DNA of 18,897 nucleotides, taken from Desulfobacterales bacterium. Its GTDB lineage: Bacteria; Desulfobacterota; Desulfobacteria; Desulfobacterales; QNYZ01. The notes under the pieces are model-generated. The model was not told the origin of the DNA. It made no database searches and saw only the letters and a list, made by a program, of their open reading frames with translations. The stretch spans positions 1,449 to 20,345 of the forward strand of contig JAOZUU010000001.1 of the NCBI GenBank assembly GCA_029938515.1. The letters run 5' to 3'. The translations under genes and the position numbers were made by a program. Each line of letters begins with the position of its first letter. The first letter of the stretch is position 1. Of the stretch, positions 2,522-18,897 are shown one piece after another.

Positions 2522-4745
2522 TTTATCATTAAAGCAGAAAGCGACTATCGACCGGCAGGCCTGCTGGGAAACGCTGTCCTGCGCCAAGGTGTTGTGCTCG
2601 GTCCACGGCAAACCCAAAACAGATTGCTGGTTAACCCCCCGGACACATTGTTCCACTTTTATTGTTAAAAATTTATCCGAAAAGATTCCCACCTGTTTGA
2701 CCTGTTCATATTTCAAAGCCAGGGGCGGGCAGCAGAATTCCCGGAACTGGAATCAATTCATAGCCGATCAGCTTCACATTTACAATGTCAACGCTTTGGA
2801 AAGGATGTATCATAAAGAGGAAAGTTTTATAGAGATTTTAAACCGTATCCCGGACGGGCTGTTCACCACGGATAAAGAATGGCGAATCACCTATTTTAAT
2901 CCGGCTGCAGAAAAAATAACCGGATTTTCAGCCTACGATGCTATCGGTATGTACTGCAAGGATGTGTTTAAAAACTCTATCTGCGAATCTGACTGTGCGT
3001 TGAAACGGGCGGTCGCGGAGGGACACGACATCCACAACCGGGAATATTCAATTACAAACATTGATGGCAAAAAGGTGCCCATTATCTGTTCCACCTCGGC
3101 ATTCACGGACAAATCCGGCCAGGTAACGGGCGGGGTGGAGATATTTAAGGATATTTTCGAGATCAAGCGGCTGCAGGAGGAGGTTTCCAGTCGCGAAAGA
3201 AAATATCGCCGGATATTCGAGGGCAGCCATGACATAATCTATACGACCAACCAGTCGGGCCAGATACTTGATATGAATATAGCCGGCGTGCGCGCGTTGG
3301 GGTATTCGACCAAAGCAGAGCTGATCAACAGCCTGTCCGCTCCCGGGATGTATCGCCACACTGAAGACCGGAAGAAGTTTCTGGCGGAAATCAACCGAAA
3401 CGGATCCGTCAAGGATTACGAGGTCGATTTCATCAAACGTGACAATTCTCCACTGCATGTGCTGATATCAAGTCGACGTTACGAAAATTCTGAAACCGGC
3501 GATATTGAGTACGAAGGGATTATAAAAGATATCACCCACCGCAAGGAGAGAGAAGAAGTCATCAAGGAAAGAAACCGGGAACTATCCATCCTTAACAGCG
3601 TGGCGGTGGCCGTAAACAATAAGATGGACTTAGATCACGTCCTGAAGGTAACGCTCACGGATGTGCTCAGGGTGCTGCGATTGAAACGGGGCGCTATTTT
3701 TCTCATTGACCGGGATGAAAAAAAGGCCTGGCTCCAGGCAAGATCCGGTCTGCCCCGTCCGGATGGCCGGAACCATGTGGTTTTTAAAGATGACATCCTT
3801 GAAAGGCATATGCTTATCCAGGAATCACCGTTGACACCGAAGCCTACATTTCCCTCTTTCAAGGTTCGGTATCATTCAGATAATGGCAAACTTGTTCCGT
3901 GGCTGTTATGTTTTCTAATCACCTTCAAGGGAAGGGGGGTCGGTTTTTTCGGATTTGAGATTCCCGCTTCACGCGCACTCAACCGTAATGAAATCCACCT
4001 GATGGGGTCTCTGGGAAATTTTTTGGGTGGAACGATTGAAAACGCGCAATTAATGAAAATGATCAGTCAACACCGCGGAGAGCTCAGACAGCTGACGGAA
4101 AAACTGTTTCAGAATCAGGAAGAAGAACGTCGGCGCATTGCCCGCGAATTGCATGATGAAGCCGGCCAGTCGCTGACAGCCATCAAATTGGGGTTGGATC
4201 GACTGGAAGAAAGGCATGGAGAAGATGATACCGGCCTTAAATCGGAAATTGATGAGATTCGGAGAATGATCAAACGAACGTCGTCTGAAATCAGACACAT
4301 TTCCTATCATCTACACCCGACCCTGTTGGTCGACCTGGGCCTTGAACCCGCGCTCAAGCTGTATTTTAAAGAAATCGCAACTCGCTCCAACCTGGTTGTT
4401 GAATTCAACATGGTGGGCTTTGATCATCGGCTGGATATGGATATGGAGACGATATTCTACCGTTTCAGCCAGGAAGCGCTCACCAATACCCTGAAACATT
4501 CCGGTGCCGAAAATTTCCGGCTCTCCATTATCAAAAGTTATCCCCAAATTATTTTTGTGGCTGAAGATAACGGCGTGGGGTTTGACACGCAAATTGTTGG
4601 AAAAGATAAAATGAGTCTGGGACTACTGGGAATGCGTGAAAGAGCGTCTTATGTTGACGGGACCTTTCAGCTTCGCAGCCAGCCGGGGAAAGGCACCCGA
4701 ATCCGGATCCAAATACCCTTTAGCGAGGAATCCGATGCCGACTGA
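2490..4745 (+). CDS. Cytoplasmic sensor histidine kinase: Cys-rich two-CW-type domain, PAS, PAS, GAF, HisKA_3, HATPase
   Basis: The chosen GTG start gives 751 residues and has AAGGGAG nine bases upstream. In-frame ATGs at 2412, 2430 and 2481 lie inside the V4R gene and are less well placed. Domains in order: a Cys cluster at about residues 25-72 (Cys25, 31, 36, 46, 54, 69, 72, with CW at 25 and 46); PAS at about 110-225; PAS at about 230-355; GAF at about 370-540; a HisKA_3 dimerisation helix with ARELHDEAGQ and likely phospho-acceptor His555; and a HATPase domain with an N box (EALTNTLKHS) and EDNGVGFD. There are no membrane helices or signal peptide, so it should sense an internal cue. The Cys cluster resembles the two-CW domain of Desulfobacterota and may bind metal or report redox state. 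The gene overlaps the response regulator by 11 bases. Confidence 0.9.
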   Translation: MSSLLESHLVNLSLKQKATIDRQACWETLSCAKVLCSVHGKPKTDCWLTPRTHCSTFIVKNLSEKIPTCLTCSYFKARGGQQNSRNWNQFIADQLHIYNVNALERMYHKEESFIEILNRIPDGLFTTDKEWRITYFNPAAEKITGFSAYDAIGMYCKDVFKNSICESDCALKRAVAEGHDIHNREYSITNIDGKKVPIICSTSAFTDKSGQVTGGVEIFKDIFEIKRLQEEVSSRERKYRRIFEGSHDIIYTTNQSGQILDMNIAGVRALGYSTKAELINSLSAPGMYRHTEDRKKFLAEINRNGSVKDYEVDFIKRDNSPLHVLISSRRYENSETGDIEYEGIIKDITHRKEREEVIKERNRELSILNSVAVAVNNKMDLDHVLKVTLTDVLRVLRLKRGAIFLIDRDEKKAWLQARSGLPRPDGRNHVVFKDDILERHMLIQESPLTPKPTFPSFKVRYHSDNGKLVPWLLCFLITFKGRGVGFFGFEIPASRALNRNEIHLMGSLGNFLGGTIENAQLMKMISQHRGELRQLTEKLFQNQEEERRRIARELHDEAGQSLTAIKLGLDRLEERHGEDDTGLKSEIDEIRRMIKRTSSEIRHISYHLHPTLLVDLGLEPALKLYFKEIATRSNLVVEFNMVGFDHRLDMDMETIFYRFSQEALTNTLKHSGAENFRLSIIKSYPQIIFVAEDNGVGFDTQIVGKDKMSLGLLGMRERASYVDGTFQLRSQPGKGTRIRIQIPFSEESDAD

Positions 4746-5532: not shown

Positions 5533-5600
5533 CAATGGTGTTTTTTAGATTTGCCTGTAGCAGGAATTTAAACCAGTCCATTTTTTCAAAGGAGGAGGGA

Positions 5601-6554
5601 ATGTTTCAATTAGATACCAAACAAAAAGTGTGTGAGGTAGGTGGCGTTAAATTCGGCGGCCAGCCGGGTGAATATCCTTGCGTTTGCGTAAGTTCCATTT
5701 TCCAAAAAGGCGACAAGGTATTTACCGGCAAACGCAAAGAAGGCTTTGACGAAAAACGGGCTGAAGAATTGCTTAAGACCCAGGAACGCTTGACGGCTGA
5801 AACCGGCGTGCCGGGTATGGCAGACATCGTGGCCAACACCGGTAAAGAGTTTGAGACCTTTATCGATTTCGTAACCGAGAAAAGCGACATGCCGTTTTGC
5901 ATCGATGCCTGGGTGATGAAACCCAAGCTGGCGGGTGCTGCCTATTGTGCCGAGAAAGGCCTGCTTGACCGTATGTTTTATAACAGCCTGACCATATGGG
6001 AACAGGATCTGGAGACGGAAATCAAGGAGATCGTCAACATCGGTGTCAAACACGTTTTGTTGGTGTCTTTCGACCAGGAAGACCAGATGCCTAGTGGTCG
6101 GATCACCGGCACCCAAAAACTGCTGGATGCAATCGAAAAGGTAGGTGCCGAATTCGAAAGCATTTTTGTGGACACTTCGGTGATGAACGGTCCGGCTACG
6201 GCTTTCTGTGGCGTTGCCAACCGGATGATCAAAGAAAAATGGGGCTTTCCCACCGCCAGTGCACCGAGCAACGGCTCATACATGGATCTAAAACGTTTTA
6301 AGGATATGTGGGATTTCAAAGGTTGGTCCTCCACCGATGCCGCCTTGGAAGGGCTTTCGGCTTTCTTTTACCATGACATGATTTTTTCCGGTCCCATGGC
6401 CGGCGCTACCCGGATTTTACCGGCAGTTGCCGAAGCTGATGCGTTTTTGGCCACAGCCGCATTTGCAGAGACCAAGCAACTACCCAAAGATCCAAATCAT
6501 CCGCTTTTTAAGCTGTTCCCGGATTTTGTTGAGCAGCTAAAGACGATGATGTAA
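5601..6554 (+). CDS. MtrH-like methyltransferase (methyl-corrinoid to tetrahydrofolate/pterin type)
   Basis: The product has 317 residues and reads throughout as the MtrH family: a TIM-barrel protein that moves the methyl group between a corrinoid protein and a tetrahydropterin. Recognisable segments are the N-terminal GGVKFGGQPGEYPCV, the Asp-containing strand with PFCIDAW, and the glycine-rich end of the barrel with SAPSNGSY. The ATG at 5601 is preceded by AAAGGAGGAGGG. The open frame starts earlier, at 5535, but the additional 22 residues have no family support. In the Mtv and Mto demethylase systems an MtrH-like protein is the second methyltransferase, passing methyl from the corrinoid protein to the C1 carrier. 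That role fits here because a corrinoid protein and its activator follow in the same operon. Direction of methyl flow cannot be read from sequence. Confidence 0.88.
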   Translation: MFQLDTKQKVCEVGGVKFGGQPGEYPCVCVSSIFQKGDKVFTGKRKEGFDEKRAEELLKTQERLTAETGVPGMADIVANTGKEFETFIDFVTEKSDMPFCIDAWVMKPKLAGAAYCAEKGLLDRMFYNSLTIWEQDLETEIKEIVNIGVKHVLLVSFDQEDQMPSGRITGTQKLLDAIEKVGAEFESIFVDTSVMNGPATAFCGVANRMIKEKWGFPTASAPSNGSYMDLKRFKDMWDFKGWSSTDAALEGLSAFFYHDMIFSGPMAGATRILPAVAEADAFLATAAFAETKQLPKDPNHPLFKLFPDFVEQLKTMM

Positions 6555-6614: not shown

Positions 6615-7667
6615 ATGGCGGAACTTACCCCCAAAGAACGCGTTTTGCGACTGCTGCGCAAGGAACCTATCGACACCATGCCGTTTTTCAGCGGAATGGG
6701 AATGGTTGTGATGCCGGGTATTGAAAAATCCGGCTACAATTTTCCCACCGTGCACACCGATGCCGAGCGGATGGCGTGGTCGGCCATATGGTCGGCACGG
6801 CTGATGAATTTTGACTGTGTGGTGATTCCTTATGATATGACCATGGAATCTGAAGCCATGGGCAACACGATCAGTCTGTACGCGGATTCCGAGGATATCC
6901 TATACCCGACCATCCCCAACAAGATCTGGTCCACCCTGGACGAGGTGGAAATACCGGATAAAATCTGGGAAAAAGGACGTTTACCAATTTTGGCAGATGC
7001 AATAAAGATTATCAAGGAAAATGCGCCGGAGCTGGCCATCGGCTGTTGGCAGCTAGGTCCTTTTACCCAGGCCGGTCAAGTTCTGGAGCTGGATCTGATG
7101 CTCAAGGGTATCTTCAAACAAAAGGAGAAAGTTGAAAATATTCTCGATAAGATATCCGACATGATCATCGATATTGGAAAATGGCTTCAGGCTTCGGGCT
7201 GTGACTATATTACGCTACGCGAGCCGGGGGTGGCGGCGGACCTGCTGAGTCCCAAAACCTTCAAAAACTTCATCCAGCCGAGACTGACCCGGATCTTAGC
7301 GGGGTGGGAATCACCCAAGCTCCTTCACATTTGCGGTAAAACAGAACCGCTACTGGCTATGATGTCCGAGTGCGGCGCGGATGGTTTAACGGTGGATATT
7401 AAATGTGATGTTAAAAAAGGCCGGGAGATTTTAGGGCCGGACGTGTTGTTTATGGGCAACATTGACACCTACACCATGACCTGTGACGAGAAAACCCCCA
7501 AAGACAAAGCGATTGAGCATATCAAGGGGATGATTGACGGTGGAATCGATGCGGTGATGCCGGGTTGTGACCTGTGGCCGGCGATTATTGAGGAAAACAT
7601 GAAAGCGTGTGTGGATACCACCCATGAGTATGGCAAGAATCCAAGTCCGGCGGTCGGCCGGCTGTAA
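6615..7667 (+). CDS. UroD-family zinc-dependent corrinoid methyltransferase (MtbA/MtaA/MtoB-like fold)
   Basis: This 350-residue protein belongs to the uroporphyrinogen decarboxylase superfamily, but its neighbours and metal ligands point to methyl transfer rather than haem synthesis. The zinc site is His238-Ile-Cys240 (in LLHICGKTEP) with the third ligand Cys318 in VMPGCDLWP, the H-x-C...C pattern of MtbA, MtaA and the MtoB/OdmB-type O-demethylases. AGGAG lies about ten bases upstream of the ATG. In a three-component demethylase this protein would be methyltransferase I, taking a methyl group from a methylated substrate and giving it to the corrinoid protein encoded next. The substrate is unknown; methoxyarenes and methylated thiols are both possible. 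A second member of the family at 11794 has the third ligand replaced by a UGA codon. Confidence 0.85.
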   Translation: MAELTPKERVLRLLRKEPIDTMPFFSGMGMVVMPGIEKSGYNFPTVHTDAERMAWSAIWSARLMNFDCVVIPYDMTMESEAMGNTISLYADSEDILYPTIPNKIWSTLDEVEIPDKIWEKGRLPILADAIKIIKENAPELAIGCWQLGPFTQAGQVLELDLMLKGIFKQKEKVENILDKISDMIIDIGKWLQASGCDYITLREPGVAADLLSPKTFKNFIQPRLTRILAGWESPKLLHICGKTEPLLAMMSECGADGLTVDIKCDVKKGREILGPDVLFMGNIDTYTMTCDEKTPKDKAIEHIKGMIDGGIDAVMPGCDLWPAIIEENMKACVDTTHEYGKNPSPAVGRL

Positions 7668-7757: not shown

Positions 7758-8423
7758 ATGGCGTCAAAAGAAGAGTTGATTGAAAAATTAAAAGAAGGTG
7801 TTGTTGAGTATGAGGAAGATACGGTGAACGAAGCCTCCCAGCAATGGCTCGATGACGGGCATGAGGCGCTGGAGGGAATCATGGAAGGTCTCGCCGCCGG
7901 CATGGAGATTGTCGGTGATCTTTATGATAAGCAAGAGTACTTTGTCCCTGAAGTATTGATGTGCGCAGATGCACTTTATGGTGGGTTGGATATTCTCAGA
8001 CCCCATGTCCCGGAAAAAGAGGGTGGCCCCAAGGCCCAGGTGGTAATCGGCAGCATCCAGGGAGATGTCCATGATATCGGTAAAAACCTGGTAAAGATGA
8101 TGTTCGATGTGGCCGGTTGGGATGTTCATGACCTGGGCCGTGATGTTCCCCTGGAAAATTTTGTGAGCGAACAACTCAAGACCGACTCCGAGGTCGTCGC
8201 GATGTCTGCCATGATGACCACCACCATGCTGGGTATGAAAAAAGTCATCAAGATGATCAAGGATAAGAATCCGGATGTGGCGATCATGTTAGGTGGCGCA
8301 CCGGTAACAAAGGACGTAGCCAACCTGTTTGGTGCCGACGGGTACGCCGAGTCTGCCGGAAACGCCGTTTCCGAAGGTATAAAAATGATTGGCCGATTGA
8401 GAGAATACCAGAAAAAGGACTGA
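7758..8423 (+). CDS. Corrinoid (B12-binding) methyl-carrier protein, MtbC/MtvC-like
   Basis: The product has 221 residues. An N-terminal four-helix cap spans about residues 1-90, and a Rossmann-like B12-binding domain follows. The hallmark DxHxxG motif is GDVHDIGKN at 102-110, with His105 as expected lower axial ligand to cobalt. Later B12-site segments SAMMTTTM and MLGGAPVT are present. Length and layout match the corrinoid subunits of methylamine, methanol and methoxyarene methyltransferase systems. It should shuttle the methyl group as methyl-Co(III) between the UroD-type and MtrH-type enzymes encoded upstream. AAGGAG lies eight bases before the ATG. A strong RNA hairpin follows the stop codon, which may raise the level of this subunit relative to the activator gene downstream. 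Confidence 0.93.
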   Translation: MASKEELIEKLKEGVVEYEEDTVNEASQQWLDDGHEALEGIMEGLAAGMEIVGDLYDKQEYFVPEVLMCADALYGGLDILRPHVPEKEGGPKAQVVIGSIQGDVHDIGKNLVKMMFDVAGWDVHDLGRDVPLENFVSEQLKTDSEVVAMSAMMTTTMLGMKKVIKMIKDKNPDVAIMLGGAPVTKDVANLFGADGYAESAGNAVSEGIKMIGRLREYQKKD

Positions 8424-8597: not shown

Positions 8598-10658
8598 ATG
8601 GATGAAGACAAGGTAATGGTGATATTCCAACCTTCGGGCCAACGCGGGGAAGTGCCCAAAGGCACCAATATAATCGAGGCCTCCAGATTGCTGGGGGTAG
8701 ACATTGAGGCGCTGTGCGGGGAGAAAAAAGTATGTGGGAAATGCATCGTCCGTATCGAGGAAGGCCATTTTGAAAAGTACGGCATCACCTCCAGCACTAC
8801 CCATGTCAGCCCATGGCTGGAGGAAGAAGACAAGTTTATAACGCCCGATCTTAAGGAGAAGGGATTCCGGTTGGGATGTGTGGCCGCTATAGAAGATGAT
8901 ATCCTCGTTTTCGTTCCTGAAGAATCAAGGGCCGGAAAACAAGTGGTCAGCAAAGCCGCAAGGGATATCCATATTGATCACAATCCAGCAGTGAGGGTTT
9001 ATTCTGTTGAGGTTTCCCCGCCAACCTTTGAAGAACCCACAGGTGACTTTGAACGGGTTTGCCGGGGGCTGGAAAGAGATTACGGTCTTGAAAACCTGAC
9101 CATTGATATTTTTACCCTGCGGCGCCTTCCTGATGCTTTGCGTGAGGGCAACTGGACCGTGACCGTTAGCGTCTGGAACGATAAAGAGGTCATTCGGGTG
9201 CGACCGGGCAAGGTGGAGCAGGCGTACGGCATTGCCATTGACGTGGGAACGACCACCGTGGCCGGTTACATGTGTGATTTACAGACCATGGAAGTGTTGG
9301 AAACCGTATCAATGATGAATCCCCAGTGCAAATACGGTGAAGACGTGATGGCACGCATCACATACCACATGATGAATGAAGACGGATTGAAACGTATGAG
9401 CGATGATATCATTGAAGGAATCAATGAGCTGATCGAAAAGGCTGTCGCCAGTACATATCCCCCCAAAAAGAAGAAAAAAAAGAAAAAGGGGGAAAAAGGG
9501 CCGGCCGAGTATGTGGAAGTCCCCGAGGAAGGCAAGACATATCTGCGCCTGATCCGTGAAGATATCGAGGATATTACCATCGGTTTTAACACGGCCATGC
9601 ACCACATTTTTCTTTCATTGAATCCGGAGTATGTCGGATTGGCGCCCTTTCCGCCGGCGATTCACCATAGCATGGACATCAAAGCCCGTGATCTGGGGGT
9701 CAATGTCAATCCATCCACCTATTTATTTGTCCTGCCCATTGAGGCCGGATTCGTGGGCGCCGACAATGTGGGCGTACTGATTGCCGAAGAGCCCTACAAA
9801 CACGAAGAAAACCAGCTGATAATCGATATCGGCACCAATGGCGAGTTGGTTCTGGGAAATCGCCATAAACTGATCTCTTCATCGTGCGCGACAGGCCCTG
9901 CTCTGGAAGGCGCCCAGCTTGCTTTCGGCATGCGGGCCGCTCCAGGGGCCATCGAGCGCATCGAAATTGATCCGGAGACCAAGGAGGTCGATTATAAAGT
10001 CATCGGCCGGGAAGCCTGGCGCAAATTTTCAGAACCCGAGGAGATGAAAGCAAAGGGTATCTGCGGTTCCGGTATCCTGGACGTGTTGGCCGAGCTTTAC
10101 AGAGCCAACATCATCTTGAAAAGCGGCGTGTTCAATAAAAAGGGGCTGAAGGATCATCCACGATTCAGGAAAAATCCGGACACCAAGCAGCCGGAATTTA
10201 TTTTGGCCTGGGCTAATGAATCAAGCATTGACAAGGATATTGTCATCACCCAGAAAGATATCCGGCAGATTCAGCTTGCCAAGGGCGCCCTTTATGCCGG
10301 CTGCAAGTTGATGGTTGAGCGGATGGGACTGGACAAGGTTGATACGGTGAAGATTGCCGGCGCTTTCGGTACCCATGTGGATCGTGAAAAAGCCTTGATC
10401 ATGGGGCTGTTTCCGGATTGTGAAATCGAAAAAATAAAGGGTGTGGGCAATGCCGCCGGAGACGGATGCCGGGCGGCCTTGTTGAACGCCACAAAGCGTG
10501 TGGAAGCCAACTGGTGCTCACGCAACGTGGAGTACATTGAATTAACTGTGGAAAAAAACTTCCAACAGGAATTCATGGAAGCCATGCAATTACCACATAT
10601 GACGGACGAATTCCCCCATCTCGAGGGTATTGTCCCCGATGACATCCTGAAGCAGTAG
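8598..10658 (+). CDS. RACo/RamA-type reductive activator of corrinoid proteins (2Fe-2S ferredoxin plus ASKHA ATPase-like domain)
   Basis: The product has 686 residues. A plant-type 2Fe-2S ferredoxin domain comes first, with Cys40, Cys46, Cys49 and Cys94. A linker follows, then from about residue 205 the DUF4445 ASKHA-fold region with IDVGTTT, IIDIGTNGE, GSGILDVLAELY and GAFGTHVDREK. Family members such as RACo and RamA use ATP to drive electron transfer to Co(II) corrinoid, restoring the active Co(I) state. The protein would serve the upstream corrinoid protein. Eight consecutive Lys (residues 290-297, coded by an A-rich run at 9465-9488) interrupt the ASKHA region near NTAMHHI, an unusual insertion. 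AAGGAGG lies ten bases before the ATG. The DUF6951 gene follows after ten bases. Confidence 0.92.
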   Translation: MDEDKVMVIFQPSGQRGEVPKGTNIIEASRLLGVDIEALCGEKKVCGKCIVRIEEGHFEKYGITSSTTHVSPWLEEEDKFITPDLKEKGFRLGCVAAIEDDILVFVPEESRAGKQVVSKAARDIHIDHNPAVRVYSVEVSPPTFEEPTGDFERVCRGLERDYGLENLTIDIFTLRRLPDALREGNWTVTVSVWNDKEVIRVRPGKVEQAYGIAIDVGTTTVAGYMCDLQTMEVLETVSMMNPQCKYGEDVMARITYHMMNEDGLKRMSDDIIEGINELIEKAVASTYPPKKKKKKKKGEKGPAEYVEVPEEGKTYLRLIREDIEDITIGFNTAMHHIFLSLNPEYVGLAPFPPAIHHSMDIKARDLGVNVNPSTYLFVLPIEAGFVGADNVGVLIAEEPYKHEENQLIIDIGTNGELVLGNRHKLISSSCATGPALEGAQLAFGMRAAPGAIERIEIDPETKEVDYKVIGREAWRKFSEPEEMKAKGICGSGILDVLAELYRANIILKSGVFNKKGLKDHPRFRKNPDTKQPEFILAWANESSIDKDIVITQKDIRQIQLAKGALYAGCKLMVERMGLDKVDTVKIAGAFGTHVDREKALIMGLFPDCEIEKIKGVGNAAGDGCRAALLNATKRVEANWCSRNVEYIELTVEKNFQQEFMEAMQLPHMTDEFPHLEGIVPDDILKQ

Positions 10659-10668
10659 ATCTGTTGTA

Positions 10669-11043
10669 ATGGGCGTGCCAAAACCACTAGGAGAAACAGA
10701 ATACAAGGAGGATATCTGTACCACCGTAGACCCTGGGATCTGTGGCCTCCCTTGTCGTATCAGAGCCCACAAAGAAAGTGCCCGGGCAGTCACCATTGAC
10801 ATTGGACGGACGCAGTGCGAACAGATCGTCATGCTCGCCAAACGGATCGACAGAATAACCTTACAGGAGTTGTTTGCACCACTAACCCGTAATCCCGTGT
10901 GCGTGGCAGCTCAGAAGGCCGGTTGCCACGCCTCTTGCCCGGTACCGGTGGCGATTTTAAAAACAGCGGAAGTGGCCATGGAAATGGCGCTTCCAAAGCA
11001 GGTTATAATCAAGTTTGAAGCCTGTGACAGGAAAGAAAAATGA
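10669..11043 (+). CDS. DUF6951-type small Cys-rich protein
   Basis: This 124-residue protein of unknown function contains DPGICGLPCRI, a later C-x-Q-type Cys, and the C-terminal CHASCPVP. The Cys pattern suggests binding of a metal or Fe-S cluster, and I recall similar proteins beside corrinoid methyltransferase genes, named DUF6951. It is translationally coupled to the DUF2284 gene by a four-base ATGA overlap. The start is in doubt: the ATG at 10669 has no ribosome site, while a perfect AAGGAGG at 10705-10711 is followed in frame only by ATC, TGT and ACC codons just before the conserved region. A non-standard start there would shorten the protein by about 15 residues. Confidence 0.7.
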   Translation: MGVPKPLGETEYKEDICTTVDPGICGLPCRIRAHKESARAVTIDIGRTQCEQIVMLAKRIDRITLQELFAPLTRNPVCVAAQKAGCHASCPVPVAILKTAEVAMEMALPKQVIIKFEACDRKEK

Positions 11044-11651
11044 GCCAAGCCAAGCCAAACCCAAAAATAGTCTCTTTTAAATCCCAGAAAGAGGGAATTT
11101 CACAGGCATTGATTCAGAAGCTGCTGGAAAAAGGAAAAAACTACGGTTTGAACGCCATATTTCCCTTTTCCATTGATAAAATCAAAGTGGCCCAATGGGT
11201 TCAACTTAAATGCCGCTACGGTTGCAACCGCTATAATACAAACTGGTGCTGCCCTCCGGCAACACCGGAACCCGACAAGGTTCGCGCGGTGCTATCGGAA
11301 TATTCAGTGGCGCTTCTGCTGGTGGGAAGTACAAATTGTGCCGATTTTTATCTGGACAATAGTCGAAAAAGGGCCAATCAGGTACGTTGCTGGAAGGGCA
11401 GCGTCAGTCTGGAACGGTTGCTCTTTCTGGAGGGATACTACAAAGCATTCAGCCTGGTGGGTGAGTGCTGCGCCTTGTGTAAAACTTGTGCTTATCCTCA
11501 GGAATGTCGTTTCCCCCAGGAAAAACGCCCTTCTATTGAATCCTTTTCCATTGATGCTATCGGGACCCTGCGAAACCTGGGGGTTTCTCCCAGGGTCGCC
11601 AATCATAAAAATGATAGCTACAGCTACTATGGCATCATTCTGCTGGAGTGA
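11040..11651 (+). CDS. DUF2284 predicted metal-binding protein
   Basis: The product has 203 residues and is rich in Cys. The first cluster is KCRYGCNRYNTNWCCPP, the second GECCALCKTCAYPQECRFP; both are typical of DUF2284, a family presumed to bind iron-sulfur clusters or zinc. The reaction is unknown. The gene overlaps the preceding one by four bases (ATGA), so the two are almost certainly co-translated. Their position directly after a corrinoid activator suggests help with electron delivery to the activator or with cofactor assembly, but this is inference only. The following 142-base gap ends this tightly packed block. Confidence 0.82.
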   Translation: MSQAKPNPKIVSFKSQKEGISQALIQKLLEKGKNYGLNAIFPFSIDKIKVAQWVQLKCRYGCNRYNTNWCCPPATPEPDKVRAVLSEYSVALLLVGSTNCADFYLDNSRKRANQVRCWKGSVSLERLLFLEGYYKAFSLVGECCALCKTCAYPQECRFPQEKRPSIESFSIDAIGTLRNLGVSPRVANHKNDSYSYYGIILLE

Positions 11652-11793: not shown

Positions 11794-12828
11794 ATGGCTA
11801 AGCAAATGCTAATTGATGCCTACCGCGGGAAAAAGACAGTTAAACCCCCGTGGGTGCCTTACGCTGGCGTTCATTGCGCTTTTTTAATCAATGAGCCGGC
11901 TGACAAGATGCTCCAGGATCCGGAATTGCTGGCAAAAGGGGTGGTCCATACCGCCAAGCGATACAATGCAGATGGCATCCCACTGGTATTCGATTTGTCG
12001 GTGGAAGCCAATTCCGTGGGCTGTGAGCTGAAGTGGTGGGAGGATAATGTGCCTTCCGTCAAAAACCATCCATGCTCGGACAAAACACCTGCCGAGGCCG
12101 GTCTTCAGCTGCCCACCAAGGATTCGGGGCGCTGGTCGGTGCTCTATGAGGCCGCCAGAATCGCTAAACCCCAGCTCGACGAGCTCGATTGTGTATTGAT
12201 GGGACTTTATTGTGGTCCCCTGACGCTAGCCTCTCACTTGGCTGGTGTACGTATTTTTACGGATGTTTATAAACATCCTGAATTCGCCGATGAAGTGTGT
12301 AAGTTTGCCGGCGAGATCGGGAACCTCGCCGCCGGATTTTATGCCGAGATGGGATGCGAGATCATTGCCATCGTTGACCCCGTGGCCTCGCAGATCAAAT
12401 CGGAAACCTTTAAGAGATACGTTACACCCCATTGCCAGGCGGGCATCAAGACCATTCATGACGCTGGAATGACATCTTCTTTTTTCATTTGTGGTGACGC
12501 CACCAAGGTCATGACAGACGTCTGTACCATTGGCACGCATGGTTTTGCCATTGACGAGCAGATGAACATGAATTTTATCCGCGACCTGGCCCTCAAACAC
12601 AAGGTCGGATTCGGTGGCAACCTGAAATTGACGCTGGCCTTGAGCCTGGGCCTGCTTTCGCCCCGGGAAGATGCCATCGTAAGCTTGGCTGCAGGAGGTC
12701 AGCATGGTTATACGTTCGCACCCGGCTGAGACATGCCCTACGATGTTCCGGTGGAACATATGGACCAAGCGATTGAAGTGCGTGACTGGTTTGAGCAGTA
12801 CTATTCAAAGTATCCGGAATCTTGGTAA
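11794..12828 (+). CDS. Selenocysteine-containing UroD-family methyltransferase (UGA at 12727-12729 read as Sec312)
   Basis: Read through a single in-frame UGA, the product has 344 residues and ends at TAA 12826-12828. Up to the UGA it is a UroD-superfamily protein like the one at 6615. The UGA lies in the context FAPG-U-DMPYD, which aligns with MPGC-DLWP of the paralog, whose Cys318 is the third zinc ligand. The 32 codons after the UGA continue as an acidic amphipathic helix ending PESW, then TAA. A perfect seven-pair hairpin starts 13 bases after the UGA. Spacing from the first Cys is nearly equal: Cys233 to U312 here, Cys240 to Cys318 in the paralog. The His of the H-x-C pair is Phe231 here (FFICGD), so the metal site is altered. 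GGAGG precedes the ATG. Alternatives are a nonsense mutation or a sequencing error. Confidence 0.82.
12743..12759 (+). promoter_or_regulatory. Bacterial SECIS-like hairpin directly behind the in-frame UGA
   Basis: ATGTTCC at 12743-12749 pairs perfectly with GGAACAT at 12753-12759 around the loop GGT. The loop sits 21-23 bases after the UGA at 12727-12729. Bacterial SECIS elements lie within the coding region at about this distance and show G (often GGU) in the apical loop. If the closing C-G pair opens, the loop becomes the five-base CGGTG. Confidence 0.7.
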
Positions 12829-12853: not shown

Positions 12854-13258
12854 ATGGCGGATAAATTAAACATAGATGTGGTGACCCTGGACAGCGTTCA
12901 ATGCGCTGCATGTGGATACATGATGGAATCCATTGCGGCCCTGCCCGATGATGTCCAGGAAGTCATCGATTACACCGAATGGTCGATTAAGAACAAAGAC
13001 GGCATCGGTAAATTCATGGAACTCGGTGTTAAAGTCCTGCCGTCCATTTGCATCGAAAGAGACGTTGTATTTCCAAGCATCATTCCTCAATACGAGGAAC
13101 TCATCGATGAAATGGCCAAGCGTGCACCCACTGATGCCATGAAGGAGAGGATCGCGTCCCTCAGAGACGTTGGATTTCAATTTGACAAGATCCAGGAAAA
13201 CCTGGCAAAGGCCGGTGCCGGCATGGCGACACGTGTCGACTCTACAGTGAAAAAATAA
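12854..13258 (+). CDS. Thioredoxin-like protein with CAAC motif
   Basis: This 134-residue protein begins with a thioredoxin-type strand followed by Cys17-Ala-Ala-Cys20. A proline in KVLPSICIE matches the usual cis-Pro strand facing the redox pair. The C-terminal 40 residues are helical and not part of a minimal thioredoxin fold. AAAGGAG lies nine bases before the ATG. The gene begins 25 bases after the selenocysteine methyltransferase gene, so the two should be co-transcribed, and reduction of the selenol or of a selenyl-sulfide in that enzyme is a reasonable guess. CAAC is not a common active-site dipeptide, and a metal or C1 carrier role is also possible. Confidence 0.65.
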   Translation: MADKLNIDVVTLDSVQCAACGYMMESIAALPDDVQEVIDYTEWSIKNKDGIGKFMELGVKVLPSICIERDVVFPSIIPQYEELIDEMAKRAPTDAMKERIASLRDVGFQFDKIQENLAKAGAGMATRVDSTVKK

Positions 13259-13326: not shown

Positions 13327-13623
13327 TTGAACACCAACGACATTCTTGAACAGCTGAAATCGTTTACCATCAACCATGGCCTGCCGAAGACGGACATGGC
13401 GCTTTTCAACACCCTGTGCCCATACTGCGGCAAGACCGATCGCATACGGCCCTTGGAGCATCCCGACGATCTTTCCCATACGATGACATCCGAAGATCTG
13501 ACGGCCTACGAGGGCTTCTGGAAACATTTTGCTGCGTCCGAAGGATCGCTGGGTGTATGCAAATTTTGCCAGAACCCATTGAGGCTGGGCGGTAACGGGC
13601 GAGCCGAACCACTGTACCAATAA
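13327..13623 (+). CDS. Small hypothetical protein with two CxxC pairs
   Basis: The product is 98 residues and I do not recognise a family. It holds CPYC about a third of the way in and CKFC near the end, a spacing that would suit a zinc-ribbon or a redox protein. The reading frame has no ATG or GTG at its start. TTG at 13327 is 11 bases after GGAG, and ATT at 13324 is eight bases after it, so a rare start codon is needed. The upstream frame is closed by TAA at 13300. Codon use looks ordinary and the gene lies in line with its redox neighbours. It could assist metal transfer to the methyltransferases, but nothing in the sequence proves this. Confidence 0.55.
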   Translation: MNTNDILEQLKSFTINHGLPKTDMALFNTLCPYCGKTDRIRPLEHPDDLSHTMTSEDLTAYEGFWKHFAASEGSLGVCKFCQNPLRLGGNGRAEPLYQ

Positions 13624-13768: not shown

Positions 13769-14017
13769 ATGAAAGTCGAAATATTAGGATCCGGCTGCAA
13801 AAACTGTGATCAACTCCTTGAAAATGTGTTGTCGGCCGTCTCGTCACTCGATGGTGAAAAGACTATCAAAGTAGAAAAAATCGGCGACGTCCAGTATTTT
13901 ACCAAAATGGGCGTATTCATGACCCCGGGCCTGGTCATCGACGGTGAGGTGATCTCGGTTGGAAAAGTGCTGTCCGCGGATGAAATCAAACATAAGATCG
14001 AGGAGAAAATGGGCTGA
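13769..14017 (+). CDS. Small thioredoxin-fold protein (redox-active disulfide protein 2 type)
   Basis: This 82-residue protein has Cys10-Lys-Asn-Cys13 immediately after the first strand and a cis-Pro strand of the form MTPGLVIDG. Both are typical of the compact thioredoxins often found beside arsenite, organomercury or methyl-transfer genes. GAGGAG lies about six bases before the ATG. Its stop overlaps the ATG of the next gene (TGATG), which couples it to the G3E GTPase, and the flavoprotein reductase gene follows that. The set suggests a dedicated dithiol relay; its final acceptor may be the selenocysteine methyltransferase. The redox partner is inferred. Confidence 0.82.
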   Translation: MKVEILGSGCKNCDQLLENVLSAVSSLDGEKTIKVEKIGDVQYFTKMGVFMTPGLVIDGEVISVGKVLSADEIKHKIEEKMG

Positions 14018-15057
14018 TGTCTGATGTAACCCGCGTTTACCTGATTACCGGCTTTTTAGGTGCCGGAAAAACGACCCTTCTCAATCGGATTATTCAACGA
14101 TTCCCAAGCGACAAAAAACTGACCCTCCTTGTCAACGAATTCGGAGAAATTGGTGTAGACGGCACCTTGGTTGAAGGCGAGGATATCGACATGATGGAAA
14201 TCAGTAAGGGATCCATCTTCTGTGTCTGCGTCAAAACCGATTTCATCAAAGGGTTGTATGAACTGAACACGACGGTCAAACCGGATGTCATGCTGATTGA
14301 GTCTACCGGTGTGGCCAACCCGTCAGATTTAAAAAAAGACTTGGCACTGCCGATTTTTAATAACCGTTTCGAGTTCATGGAGCAGTTCTGCATCCTCGAT
14401 GCCGTCCATTTTCTGGATGCTTATGAGGTCTATGCCTCTCTTGAGAAACAAATTGCATCTTCCAGTGTATTTATTATCAATAAAACCGACATGGCTTCTA
14501 CCGATAAGATTGCCGAGACCAAAAAGGTGATTCGTCAGTTCCATTCAGACCCCACTTTTTTTGAGACGACTTATGCGGACATTCCACTGGATGAATTTTT
14601 TGGATTCGATGATCAACAGGCATCCGCATCAGACAGTTCCAACACTCCTGCGGGAGATCGACCGGTGTTGTCCGCCGATGAACTCGACAAATTCATCGAC
14701 AATCTGCTTGATGATCCCAACCTTGAAATCACACCACCGGATATGCTCGTATCCGTTGCCTATCATTGGACCGGAGATGACCTGCATCAAATCAGACAAG
14801 CTGCCGACACGCTCCCCGATTCCGTGGTGCGGGCCAAGGGTTTTGTTGAGGAGAACAACCAGATATATATTTTCAATTATGTAATGGGAGACTGGACGCT
14901 CGAAAAAACCGACATCCCCGGCAAGGACATCGCCCATAAAAACATCCTCGTATTTATCGGTCCTCCCGATGCCATGGACGGCATCGAGGAGACCACGAAA
15001 ACGGGCAATTGGAAAAACATGGGCGTGTATCAGCCTTTTTCAGAAGATACCCCATAA
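14017..15057 (+). CDS. Divergent G3E-family GTPase with altered Cys motif
   Basis: The product has 346 residues. It keeps the Walker A loop GFLGAGKTT at residues 12-20, the NEFGEIGVDG segment and an NKTD guanine motif. The usual GCICC metal motif is replaced by GSIFCVC at 65-71, leaving Cys69 and Cys71 only, in a C-x-C arrangement with one additional residue compared with canonical members. Binding of a different metal, or a metallocofactor rather than zinc, is therefore possible. It overlaps the small thioredoxin gene by one base, with GAGGAG ten bases before its ATG. Given the location, a role in loading metal or corrinoid into the methyltransferase set is plausible. It differs clearly from the G3E protein at the left end of the window. 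Confidence 0.85.
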   Translation: MSDVTRVYLITGFLGAGKTTLLNRIIQRFPSDKKLTLLVNEFGEIGVDGTLVEGEDIDMMEISKGSIFCVCVKTDFIKGLYELNTTVKPDVMLIESTGVANPSDLKKDLALPIFNNRFEFMEQFCILDAVHFLDAYEVYASLEKQIASSSVFIINKTDMASTDKIAETKKVIRQFHSDPTFFETTYADIPLDEFFGFDDQQASASDSSNTPAGDRPVLSADELDKFIDNLLDDPNLEITPPDMLVSVAYHWTGDDLHQIRQAADTLPDSVVRAKGFVEENNQIYIFNYVMGDWTLEKTDIPGKDIAHKNILVFIGPPDAMDGIEETTKTGNWKNMGVYQPFSEDTP

Positions 15058-15076
15058 AACCGGGATGGTTAATACC

Positions 15077-16000
15077 ATGACTGAAAATCACTATGATATT
15101 TTAATTGTCGGAACCGGACCGGCCGGTGCCACCGCTGCCTTTTATGGACAGCGCCTTGGCCTGAAAACGGTCGTATTTGGTGACACTCCCGGGGGAATCA
15201 CTTACATGATCGAGAGCCTGGTGGATTTCCCATCAATTGTTGGGGGTATTTCAGGGACGGAATTTGGCGTAAAGCTCTTTCAGCAGGCCCAGATGGAGGG
15301 GGCGATGTTCACCATGAGTCTGTTGGACACCCTCAAAGAGACGGATGATCAATTTTTCGCCACCGATACGAACGGTTTAACCTACACTGCGCCTTGTGCC
15401 GTCATCGCCACGGGCAGAGCACCAAAGCGGCTTCAGGTGGCGCGTTCAGATATGAAAGGTGTCAATTTATGTTCCGTTTGTGACGGTCCGTTGTTCAGAG
15501 ATAAAGACGCCACCATTGCGGTGGTGGGCAGCAATAATGCGGCAGGGCAGCACGCCCTGACCCTGAGCCGCGTTGCCACCAAGGTATACATAATCTGCAG
15601 GAGCCAAACGCTTTTAATGGATGCCGCCCACCGCCAGTTAGTTGCCGACCAGGAAAATATCGATGTATTAACGGGCACCGAGGCCACCGGCTATGTGGGC
15701 CTCGATTGTGTGGAATCGCTCGCCGTAACAACCAGCGATGGTGAAACAAAACATTTCGCCGTGGATGCCGTTTTTCCTGCCATTGGATGGGAACCCAACA
15801 TTAAATGGCTCGACTTTCCGGTTAAGCGTACTCCCGAAGGTTATTTAATTACCGATGAAACGCTGATGACCTCCAAGACCGGCCTGTTTGCCGCCGGTGA
15901 CATTCGGGAAAAAAAATTGTATCAGGTGCTGACAGCATGCGCCGATGGTGCTCGCGTCGCAAAATACGTATCCGAGTTTCTGGAAAAAACGAACGGGTAG
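15077..16000 (+). CDS. Thioredoxin-reductase-like flavoprotein with atypical NAD(P)H site
   Basis: The chosen start gives 307 residues, the usual length for low-molecular-weight thioredoxin reductases. An in-frame ATG at 15065 is an alternative, and neither has a strong ribosome site. The FAD motif VGTGPAGATAA is at 11-21, the redox pair Cys132-Ser-Val-Cys135 is followed by DGP, and the C-terminal FAD segment GLFAAGDIREKK is intact. The pyridine-nucleotide region is unusual: GSNNAA replaces GGGDSA at 151-156, and CRSQTL replaces the HRRxxxR segment that binds the NADPH phosphate. Ferredoxin-dependent reductases show similar losses, so ferredoxin or another donor may feed it. It would reduce one or both thioredoxin-like proteins encoded upstream. 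It ends the redox block; a 186-base gap follows. Confidence 0.85.
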   Translation: MTENHYDILIVGTGPAGATAAFYGQRLGLKTVVFGDTPGGITYMIESLVDFPSIVGGISGTEFGVKLFQQAQMEGAMFTMSLLDTLKETDDQFFATDTNGLTYTAPCAVIATGRAPKRLQVARSDMKGVNLCSVCDGPLFRDKDATIAVVGSNNAAGQHALTLSRVATKVYIICRSQTLLMDAAHRQLVADQENIDVLTGTEATGYVGLDCVESLAVTTSDGETKHFAVDAVFPAIGWEPNIKWLDFPVKRTPEGYLITDETLMTSKTGLFAAGDIREKKLYQVLTACADGARVAKYVSEFLEKTNG

Positions 16001-16606: not shown

Positions 16607-17392
16607 ATGGGCCGAAGCATATTAAAGAACCTGATTCCCGTCCTTATATTCATATTACTATGGCAGGTGATAGCGCTTATGGTTACGGCTGTGAAAGGGG
16701 TTCCGTTTCCGACACCGTGGCAGACCGGTGTTAAATTCGGCTCCCTGCTCGGAGGGCAGTTCCTTTCCGATCACACGTTGTACCGTCATATCCTCGACAG
16801 TCTCACGCGCTGGTTTATTGGTTTTTCCATCGCCGCCATAGCGGGAATCGGTTACGGTCTGGCTGCGGGATGGTCGCGTCTGTTTGAAGATGCAACCTAC
16901 AAGATTTTGCACATACTCCAACTCATACCCGGGCTGGCGTGGATTCCGGTGGCCATTCTCATCTTCGGGATCGGTGAAACCGCCACAATTTTTATGATCG
17001 CCATGACCGCCTTTACGCCGGTAGCCATCAACGTGCTTTCAGGAGTCAAACGGTTGGACACAACCTTTGTCCGTGCGGCGCTCATGATGGGGGCCGGCAG
17101 GAAGGCGCTGTTTCTTCAGGTGTTATTGCCCGGTTCACTGCCCGCTATTTTAAGCGGGCTTCGAATTGGTCTTGGAAACGGATGGCGGGTTCTTGTTGCG
17201 GCCGAGATGATTGTGGGTACAGGCACCGGTCTGGGTTATTCCATAATCCAGGCCCGCTGGACACTTGATTATACGTCCGCCTTTGCCTGCCTGGGCGTTA
17301 TCTGTGCCATCGGTCTGGTTTTTGAACAGTTCATTTTCAATCCATTGGAGCAGCGAACCATTGCACGGTGGGCGCTGGATCGTGATGCGTGA
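16607..17392 (+). CDS. ABC transporter permease, SsuC/TauC/NrtB-like
   Basis: This 261-residue membrane protein has about six hydrophobic segments, starting with IPVLIFILLWQVIAL. The cytoplasmic EAA-type loop, near residues 160-190, reads ALMMGAGRKALFLQVLLPGS and places a Gly and a Pro as expected for contact with the ATPase. The family imports sulfonates, taurine, nitrate, or thiamine precursors such as hydroxymethylpyrimidine. The substrate is not visible from the sequence. The ribosome site is weak (CGGAAG), and the stop overlaps the next gene, so translation is coupled. A link with the methyl-transfer genes would make the imported compound a methylated substrate, but the separate regulator argues that the transporter could be independent. 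Confidence 0.9.
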   Translation: MGRSILKNLIPVLIFILLWQVIALMVTAVKGVPFPTPWQTGVKFGSLLGGQFLSDHTLYRHILDSLTRWFIGFSIAAIAGIGYGLAAGWSRLFEDATYKILHILQLIPGLAWIPVAILIFGIGETATIFMIAMTAFTPVAINVLSGVKRLDTTFVRAALMMGAGRKALFLQVLLPGSLPAILSGLRIGLGNGWRVLVAAEMIVGTGTGLGYSIIQARWTLDYTSAFACLGVICAIGLVFEQFIFNPLEQRTIARWALDRDA

Positions 17393-18177
17393 TGATACGG
17401 ATTGAAAATATCAGCAAAAGGTATCGTTATAATGGTCACGAATCCGCAATGATATTGTCGGATATCAACCTCACCATCCCTGAGGGACAATTTGTGTGCT
17501 TACTGGGACCCAGCGGTTGCGGAAAGACAACCCTTCTCAATCTTGTTGCCGGCTTTATCAAACCCTCACAAGGCCGGATCCTGTTTAACGATGCGCGTGT
17601 CACCGGTCCGGGACCCGAACGGGGCGTCGTTTTCCAGGATGCAACCCTGTTTCCATGGCTGACCGTCCGCCAAAATGTAGAATTTGGGTTGCGCCAACGG
17701 GGGTTGAATAACAATAATCGCACAAAAATTGCCACGGAATATCTGCATCTTGTCGGCATGGCCCTCCACGCAAATGCATACCCCCATACGCTTTCCGGAG
17801 GAATGCGACAACGCATCGCCATTGCCAGAGTGCTTGCCCTGGAACCGCAAGCGCTGCTCATGGATGAGCCCTTTAGCAGTTTGGATATCAACTCGCGGGA
17901 GCATCTTCAAGATGAACTGCTGAGAGTCTGGGATGCACACCGGCGCACTTTACTTTACGTTACCCACAGTGTTGAAGAAGCGGTCTACCTGGCTGATCGG
18001 GTGATTATCATGGGACCTGCACCGAAAAGCATTTGCGGGGATATGATCCTGCCCCTGAAGCGGCCCCGGAAGCATTTCTCGGACGAGTTTCGCAGTGTAA
18101 TCGCATCACTGCGCCTTTCACTGGATGCACTTCCCTGCTGCATAAAACCATCCGAAAAAAAAAGCGGTAGAATCTAA
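17392..18177 (+). CDS. ABC transporter ATPase, SsuB/TauB-like
   Basis: The product has 261 residues with every expected ATPase motif: Walker A GPSGCGKT at 39-46, Q-loop Gln82, signature LSGGMRQR from residue 134, Walker B LLMDEP with Glu159, and switch His192. It is most like ATPases of the nitrate/sulfonate/taurine importers. The ATG at 17392 overlaps the permease stop (TGATG); an in-frame GTG lies one codon earlier. The stop codon overlaps the start of the substrate-binding protein gene (TAATG). All three parts of the importer are thus translationally coupled in the order permease, ATPase, binding protein. Confidence 0.93.
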   Translation: MIRIENISKRYRYNGHESAMILSDINLTIPEGQFVCLLGPSGCGKTTLLNLVAGFIKPSQGRILFNDARVTGPGPERGVVFQDATLFPWLTVRQNVEFGLRQRGLNNNNRTKIATEYLHLVGMALHANAYPHTLSGGMRQRIAIARVLALEPQALLMDEPFSSLDINSREHLQDELLRVWDAHRRTLLYVTHSVEEAVYLADRVIIMGPAPKSICGDMILPLKRPRKHFSDEFRSVIASLRLSLDALPCCIKPSEKKSGRI

Positions 18178-18897
18178 TGAACTTGACCTGTGCCCATTCA
18201 AGGTTTCGCGATTGTTGTTTGATTTTATTCGTTACGTCCCTCATTATATCTTGTGACCAGAATGAAGTGGTCAATACAACAAAACCTATCCGGTTTGCCT
18301 TTCAAAACCGCATCGGCAGTGCCATTCCCATTGTTGCCGTAGAAAAAGGATTCTTCAAAAAGCAGGGCCTTATAATCAAGCCACTTCGTTTCAGCAGCGG
18401 TCCGGCCTGTGCGGAAGCCCTGTATTCCGGTTCCGCTGACATCGGAACGATGGGGGACACCACAGCTATTTTTGCCACTGTCCAACACGCAAACCTGAAG
18501 ATGATCGCCAGCCACAGTACCGGTGAACACCGTCACCGACTCATCGTGCAAAACGCCGCCCCCTATCGAACGCTTGGGGATTTGCGCGGCAAACGGATCG
18601 GCATTAAGAAAGGGACTTCGACCCACGGAGGGTTCCTGGCCGCCCTGGCGGCGGGCAACATACCCCGTGCCGCCATAACTGTCGTTGATCTCAATCCCAA
18701 CACCATGCCGGTCGCGCTCATGGCGGGTTCCATAGAAGCATTTGCCGCGAGCGAACCGACACCTTCCCTTGCCGAACTAAAAGGTGGACGTGAACTCATC
18801 ACTTTCGGAGGTTTGGGCAACCAATATCCCATCATGATGCTTGCACACGCAACATTTATAAAAAATCGCGAAAAGGACCTCCTGCGCTTTATCGGTG
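18177..18897 (+). CDS. ABC transporter substrate-binding lipoprotein, SsuA/TauA/NMT1-like (3' end outside window)
   Basis: The frame is open from the ATG at 18177 to the right edge, about 240 residues, so the gene is incomplete here. The first 25 residues form a signal peptide with a hydrophobic core ending LIISC, a lipobox, so the mature protein would be anchored by its Cys. Asp follows the Cys, which in enteric bacteria marks inner-membrane retention. The mature part has the usual fold of the family: an early Gly-Phe-Phe-x-Lys-x-Gly segment (EKGFFKKQGL), a domain with SGSADIGTMGD, and GKRIGIKKGTST, where ligand contacts are expected. It would capture the solute and deliver it to the permease. 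The start overlaps the ATPase stop. The ligand remains unknown. Confidence 0.9.
   Translation, partial: MNLTCAHSRFRDCCLILFVTSLIISCDQNEVVNTTKPIRFAFQNRIGSAIPIVAVEKGFFKKQGLIIKPLRFSSGPACAEALYSGSADIGTMGDTTAIFATVQHANLKMIASHSTGEHRHRLIVQNAAPYRTLGDLRGKRIGIKKGTSTHGGFLAALAAGNIPRAAITVVDLNPNTMPVALMAGSIEAFAASEPTPSLAELKGGRELITFGGLGNQYPIMMLAHATFIKNREKDLLRFIG

Follow-up and report, generated by a model that had tools for sequence, protein, structure and literature searches.

Here, we describe SecU, a protein of the UroD methyltransferase superfamily encoded in an 18,897-nucleotide stretch of a Desulfobacterales genome (assembly GCA_029938515.1, contig JAOZUU010000001.1, positions 1,449 to 20,345, forward strand; this whole stretch is called the window), and we find that its gene carries one in-frame UGA, codon 312, which is almost certainly read as selenocysteine (Sec). 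Among the UroD methyltransferases we regard SecU as a selenoprotein family of its own, its newness being judged from the table of a 2026 review and from the literature searched, both discussed below. The original prediction, made from the letters of the window, had placed Sec in a UroD-family methyltransferase of a corrinoid system, and this is supported by the exchange of Cys and Sec among homologs and by a downstream hairpin that is selected as RNA.

A conserved UGA at the active site

First, the SecU frame runs from an ATG at 11794 to a TAA at 12826-12828, encodes 344 residues and is interrupted, as predicted, by one TGA in an otherwise intact frame. The protein belongs to the URO-D family (PF01208, 152.5 bits, above the profile cut-off), with which its predicted fold agrees. 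The TGA aligns with Cys318 of a paralog in the window that has the canonical His238-x-Cys240...Cys318 set, so that the proposed correspondence (APG-U-D against MPG-C-D) holds, as does the one-residue difference in spacing to the preceding Cys (79 residues in SecU, 78 in the paralog). TGA is the ordinary stop of 7 of the 20 window genes, and the code as a whole is therefore not reassigned, which rules out this explanation; a recurrent in-frame TGA at one position was found in none of the neighbouring gene families of the SecU loci.

Second, the UGA is conserved. A peptide-pattern scan of 84,980 species genomes yielded 59 SecU loci, and TGA stands at codon 312 in all 55 that reach this codon, the sequences of L056, L064, L066 and L068 ending before it. 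Six patterns were used that skipped the TGA site; one of them lies in the tail behind it, which could favour loci that keep the tail. There are fewer genomes than the 55 loci, because L011 and L055 belong to a single record set, that of the Olavius-associated Delta 1 genome, in which a UGA-containing SecU gene occurs twice, as paralogs in operons of different types. Carriers comprise many sulfate reducers and three records, Desulfotomaculum, Desulfofundulus and Pelotomaculum (L039, L045, L046; G030, G036, G037), which we take to be Bacillota and in which SelB is present; named isolates are among the carriers. Seventeen stretches of viral contigs matched a pattern, and none encodes a SecU relative. 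Since the window comes from a metagenome-assembled genome (MAG; 3.2 Mb, 560 contigs, 72% complete), a sequencing or assembly error, or a gene disrupted in one MAG, might be suspected, but the same codon in 55/55 loci from other records, isolates included, has already refuted this explanation and we give it next to no weight.

Third, Sec exchanges with Cys, as the original prediction had suggested checking. When 395 genomes of the phylum were drawn separately, 9 had an ortholog at E <= 1e-90, a count that takes in that of the window; 8 of these orthologs have one TGA, and the ninth (L079), whose gene adjoins MtrH- and MtbA-like genes as judged by eye, has no internal stop and carries TGT (Cys) at the Sec position. 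Among the best 120 of 1094 database homologs, again counting the window's own, 117 stop at ...APG, just ahead of the UGA, and the other 3 read on with Cys, and a search from L079 (best 120 of 931) returned more Cys forms, together with a side clade that has Trp, Ser, Tyr, Ala or Thr at this position. One further entry (P0230) has Trp inside the TGA clade; its codon may be TGG, or a TGA read with a different translation table. In a quick tree built from 89 of 173 rows, kept after thinning near-copies, the verified TGA (34) and Cys (21) rows need 7 changes between the two states, or 11 if entries ending at the UGA are taken as Sec, which they are by inference only. Both figures are estimates because 33 of the 86 inner branches were drawn open; L056, L059, L061, L064, L065, L066 and L068 were excluded before the tree, and P0207 (Thr) was removed from the later count. 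Close homologs thus include both forms, and repeated Cys/Sec exchange is a classic mark of selenoproteins.

Moreover, the 32 codons behind the UGA, described originally as family-like, are under protein-level selection, with a pN/pS of 0.31 in 52 sequences (0.34 beyond the hairpin) against 0.15 for the 60 codons ahead of the UGA in the same number of sequences. The predicted SecU model (predicted local distance difference test score, pLDDT, 94.9) superposes on MtaA over residues 1-335, which includes most of the tail, and the tail is thus predicted to pack as part of the MtaA fold. These results bear on the view that the UGA is an ordinary stop, the protein ending at residue 311 and the frame downstream being a remnant. 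Database gene calls do end there in 117 of the best 120 matches, but the tail is under purifying selection and packs in the predicted fold, Cys homologs read through the position and the TGA itself is conserved along with the hairpin, and we regard an ordinary stop as barely credible.

The Sec machinery gave a mixed picture, the selA/selB/selC set named originally being recovered only in part from the source MAG. When we followed up the suggested search for selA, selB, selC and selD, SelA was found above its cut-off in the source MAG, and three HdrA-like genes carry UGA at the CxxU site of known HdrA selenoproteins (motif from PMC13188914), from which it follows that the organism very likely uses Sec. 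Formate dehydrogenase, a further Sec marker, gave no match above cut-off in the source genome. Across the carriers, SelB was above cut-off in 42 of 50 genomes, which cover 50 of the 55 carrier loci.

A hairpin downstream of the UGA

The original prediction had described a hairpin resembling a selenocysteine insertion sequence (SECIS), with a GGT loop 21-23 bases past the UGA, and we find it as stated: ATGTTCC (12743-12749) and GGAACAT (12753-12759) enclose the loop at 12750-12752. In bacteria, the rule used by bSECISearch places the loop 16-37 nucleotides past the UGA and requires a G in it; the SecU hairpin has the proper distance, the loop G and constraint at the RNA level.

The wobble bases carry the RNA argument. 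In 56 UGA genes (the window and 55 loci) the third base is T in 56/56 at codon +5 (expected fraction 0.58) and again in 56/56 at codon +6 (expected 0.24), codon +7 is CCG in 55/56 (third-base G expected 0.31), and codon +8, which encodes Val, Ala, Leu, Ser or Glu, ends in G in every gene (56/56; expected 0.31). These fixed bases form or close the hairpin, which is selected as RNA. In an alignment of 48 of the 56 UGA sequences (A1; near-copies omitted, L072-L078 not included) 97.3% of cells pair, against 17-55% in slid controls. The Cys gene of L079 keeps the protein sequence but has lost both the loop G and the C-G pair that closes the hairpin. An Rfam scan of the window gave no match at the gathering threshold.

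Several observations weigh against Sec decoding or against the hairpin. Folded alone, the window's hairpin reaches -7.2 kcal/mol with a z of -1.75, and because 14 of 200 shuffles do equally well the window taken in isolation is no proof of it. Covariation is thin: compensatory changes on both sides affect 2 pairs and only 3 cells in A1, pair types are no more numerous than in shuffled alignments (500/500), and the covariation score is 0.063 with partners slid by +2 compared with 0.034 for the true partners. In L077 and L078 the consensus stem is broken and a shifted stem would be needed. At the protein level, the side clade mentioned above (P0185, P0186, P0191, P0192, P0193, P0195 and P0207) has residues other than Cys or Sec, some members vary the FxCG motif, and P0191 and P0193 also lack Cys233. 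As for the machinery, SelB, SelD and tRNA-Sec were not found above cut-offs in the 72% complete MAG, where the best tRNA-Sec locus holds only a tRNA called as tRNA-Ser, and the HdrA-like matches fall below the 1100-bit cut-off of that model. The frequency of SelB among carriers does not discriminate, because 352 of the 395 phylum genomes have SelB, and we dropped it as specific support.

Active site, probable thioredoxin-like partner and proposed methyl transfer

SecU has Phe231-x-Cys233...Asp254-Glu255...Sec312 in place of the His-x-Cys...Cys set. Phe occupies the position of the canonical HxC His, a replacement that the original prediction had not mentioned, and Asp254/Glu255, which presumably match the metal-side carboxylates of MtaA, are retained, each in 57/57 aligned family members. 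The chemistry put forward originally has to be qualified: Sec does occupy the place of the third canonical ligand, but the first ligand has been lost, and the His-Cys-Cys zinc site of the MtaA/CmuA/SCMT type is not present in the SecU family; zinc binding and selenol-based methyl chemistry are hypotheses. Curated models likewise score SecU below their cut-offs: 116.8 bits against 235.4 for TIGR01463 (MtaA/CmuA), 95.1 against 400 for NF040654 and 48.5 against 302.95 for the HemE model TIGR01464. A corrinoid protein and an activase, the context of MtaA/CmuA/SCMT-type enzymes, are found in the cluster.

Directly behind SecU lies the gene for TrxL, a thioredoxin-like protein with a CAAC motif. Of the 53 loci that extend 700 bp or more downstream of SecU, 51 have TrxL within that distance, 44 of them after 18-33 bp; it is missing from L055 and L063. 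On a Subdoligranulum plasmid, a distant relative combines UroD and TrxL-like domains in a single protein, and a G3E GTPase gene lies nearby; in this 25.8 kb record without annotation (L080) the fusion spans 119-1495 and is followed by a BioB-like radical S-adenosylmethionine protein (1559-2569) and the GTPase (2602-3501). Among the best 120 of 5532 fusion homologs (E <= 0.001), 118 have CAAC in the thioredoxin part, 117 have Cys at the Sec position and 118 have Phe-Val replacing His-x. One fusion, P0301, shares 36% identity with SecU in its UroD part and 44% with TrxL in its thioredoxin part; it has no His and keeps the Cys pair. Adjacency and fusion together suggest that TrxL is a functional partner of SecU.

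We consider it reasonably probable, taking all parts together, that SecU is a selenoprotein and a corrinoid methyltransferase of the MtaA fold with a metal-bound Sec, with TrxL as partner and the GTPase as metal loader. This reading draws on sequence for the Cys/Sec exchange, the RNA element, the predicted fold, the lost His and the TrxL link, and we infer which metal and substrate are used, which way the methyl group travels and what TrxL does. SelB would decode UGA 312 as Sec through the downstream hairpin, and SecU would most likely shuttle a methyl group between the corrinoid protein of its operon and a soft (sulfur or selenium) acceptor or donor. A metal, probably zinc, would be bound by Cys233, Sec312 and the Asp254/Glu255 pair; TrxL would serve as a dedicated CxxC partner that reduces the Cys/Sec site or passes on a thiol, and the neighbouring G3E GTPase may load the metal. 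COG0523 GTPases are reported to lie beside the zinc enzymes mtaA/mtaB (PMC2770081), and the GTPase here may belong to that subfamily. Two further points tell against this reading: an ordinary S-methyltransferase zinc site is hard to square with the lost His, and inspection by eye of the 5.6 kb read behind the gut fusion gene revealed no recognisable corrinoid gene.

As the main competing explanation we see a zinc-free redox pair, possible but in our view unlikely, in which Cys233 and Sec312 would cycle through a selenenylsulfide, TrxL and the thioredoxin-reductase-like protein would supply electrons, and the UroD fold would carry out reductive demethylation or dealkylation by a logic like that of glycine reductase. 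The exchange of His for Phe throughout the family would suit it, as would the CxxC partner, adjacent in nearly all loci and fused in gut relatives, a second thioredoxin in 21/37 loci and the thioredoxin-reductase-like gene in 19/37; some UroD-family methyltransferases are zinc-free, as PMC13222342 describes for CdmB. Against it, the Asp254/Glu255 pair is invariant, a G3E GTPase, which suits a metal, lies downstream of SecU in 31/37 loci, and the thioredoxin-reductase-like gene was not found in 18/37. The Sec finding is intact under either reading.

A more specific proposal, which we hold to be improbable as a whole, is a selenium relay: Sec312 would take the methyl group from methyl-Co(III) or give it to Co(I) through a Se-methyl-selenocysteine intermediate, the adduct would then be accepted or reduced by Cys233 and the CxxC of TrxL, and a thiol would carry the methyl group away. 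Less probable still, and very unlikely, is that Sec is genuine but SecU acts as a substrate-specific first methyltransferase (MT1) that demethylates its substrate onto the corrinoid protein, with MtrH passing the methyl group to tetrahydrofolate. The MtrH family member of the operon can act as the second methyltransferase (MT2), and MtrH is near SecU in 16 of the 29 loci with enough sequence. Against this stands a second operon group, in which SecU lies beside MtmB- and MTTB-family genes (L049), an MTTB-family gene (L047) or MtmB-like genes identified by eye (L047, L055); because these are families of substrate enzymes, SecU would be the second component there. With such neighbours, SecU apparently works with more than a single source of methyl groups. 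The MtmB-type proteins (L047:980-2362, L049:3144-4526, L055:1081-2463) lack the in-frame TAG that marks pyrrolysine and adjoin a corrinoid protein and SecU; their assignment rests on PF05369 for L049 and on first-residue likeness, by eye, for L047 and L055. The naming of genes in L079, L047 and L055 relies in part on translations read by eye.

Gene neighbourhood, known systems and implications

The genes of the SecU cluster follow one another in the order of Table 1. In the 29 loci defined above, a corrinoid protein is near SecU in 26 and RACo in 24.

Table 1. Features of the SecU cluster, in window coordinates
Feature	Position	Strand	Basis
MtrH-family methyltransferase, methyl-corrinoid:tetrahydrofolate type by family resemblance	5535..6554	+	PF02007 above cut-off; NF002142 (274/287 bits) and NF047990 (MtgA, 152/550) below
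UroD-family paralog, MtaA/MtbA-like	6615..7667	+	profile matches, alignment
Corrinoid protein	7758..8423	+	closest model TIGR02370, 191/215 bits
RACo-type corrinoid reductive activase	8598..10658	+	PF14574, PF17651, PF17650, Fer2
DUF6951 protein	10669..11043	+	PF22263; near SecU in 20/29 loci
DUF2284 predicted metal-binding protein, without Sec in the window	11040..11651	+	PF10050; near SecU in 15/29 loci
SecU, Sec-containing UroD-superfamily methyltransferase, 344 residues through UGA 312	11794..12828	+	frame, PF01208 profile, comparison, predicted fold
UGA decoded as Sec (almost certain), residue 312	12727..12729	+	TGA in 55/55 loci reaching the codon; Cys in homologs
Bacterial SECIS-like hairpin, ATGTTCC-GGT-GGAACAT	12743..12759	+	folding, codon wobble bases, pairing across loci
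TrxL, thioredoxin-like protein, CAAC motif	12854..13258	+	adjacency across loci, selection, fusion homologs
98-residue reading frame with TTG start, CPYCG...CKFC motifs	13327..13623	+	tblastn matches in 24/59 loci
Second thioredoxin-like protein, MTH895/ArsE type	13769..14017	+	PF13192
G3E/CobW-type GTPase, GSIFCVC motif, candidate metallochaperone	14017..15057	+	downstream of SecU in 31/37 loci
Thioredoxin-reductase-like flavoprotein	14969..16000	+	Pyr_redox_2 above cut-off, TIGR01292 below

The true start of the thioredoxin-reductase-like gene probably lies downstream of the listed ATG. The 98-residue CPYCG/CKFC protein has no Pfam or NCBIfam match; it is conserved in some of the family operons, where its usual place is between the TrxL and GTPase genes. 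A second CobW-type GTPase gene, divergent (88-1047, minus strand), was matched near SecU in L014, L015, L020 and L036. At the other end of the window (16607-18897) lies an ATP-binding cassette (ABC) transporter with permease, ATPase and binding protein, whose permease and binding protein were matched only in L016 among the 59 loci. The permease is nearest SaoP, at 149.1 bits against a cut-off of 295, and Trx3 scores 19.4 bits against 65 for SaoT, on which grounds the selenocysteine-assisted organometal (Sao) system was rejected.

Among known systems, SecU differs from the soluble methylcobamide:coenzyme M methyltransferases MtaA, MtbA and MtsA of the UroD superfamily in having Phe for His, Sec for the third Cys, a TrxL partner and scores below the curated cut-offs. 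It resembles the Type 1 Mlp clusters, proposed sulfur/selenium methyltransferases of anaerobes, which likewise combine UroD enzymes with a corrinoid protein and an activase, in genomes with abundant selenium metabolism; the Type 1 Mlps, however, keep His-Cys-Cys, several Mlps1 excepted, and the consulted text mentions no Sec in Mlps, whereas SecU has Sec and no His (PMC10418091). The UroD-thioredoxin fusions of gut Clostridia (PF01208 and PF13192 in many entries; Subdoligranulum, Faecalibacterium, Pseudoflavonifractor) resemble SecU and TrxL in sequence, as in P0301 with its missing His and retained Cys pair, and the Subdoligranulum gene also has a G3E GTPase gene nearby, but they form one protein and have Cys for Sec in 117 of the best 120 matches. 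One literature search found no described function for them. With glycine reductase GrdA/GrdB and the Sao proteins, SecU shares Sec, a nearby Cys and thioredoxin-like neighbours (in part from PMC13188914); these are other protein families with no corrinoid methyltransferase, and the likeness is one of logic only.

The 119-family selenoprotein table of the 2026 review contains no URO-D family (PMC13188914, Table 1), and no selenoprotein model of NCBIfam release 20 matches SecU at E <= 0.001. Likewise, no UroD-family selenoprotein is reported in the literature searched, namely the available parts of PMC9312934, PMC10418091, PMC8318568, PMC2398784, PMC9723677, PMC2770081, PMC13222342, PMC12013277, PMC9768040, PMC11097638 and PMC6778437; the supplementary lists of PMC8318568 and PMC6778437 could hold one without comment, and the families of Haft and co-workers (PMC12013261, PMC9879109) were covered through the PMC13188914 table.

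Finally, SecU would place Sec at a methyl-transfer site rather than at a classic redox site. Public entries of the family are commonly 32 residues short, being cut at the active site (117 of the best 120 matches). SecU is carried by many sulfate reducers and by three Bacillota records, and some carriers are isolates; its proposed function is therefore open to experiment, and the putative link to TrxL by adjacency and fusion offers a way into a group of gut proteins that seems to be uncharacterised. If the selenium relay were true, the zinc thiol-activation site of the UroD fold would have been turned into a selenium relay with a thioredoxin-like protein as its built-in partner, which gut Clostridia carry fused to the Cys version of the enzyme.
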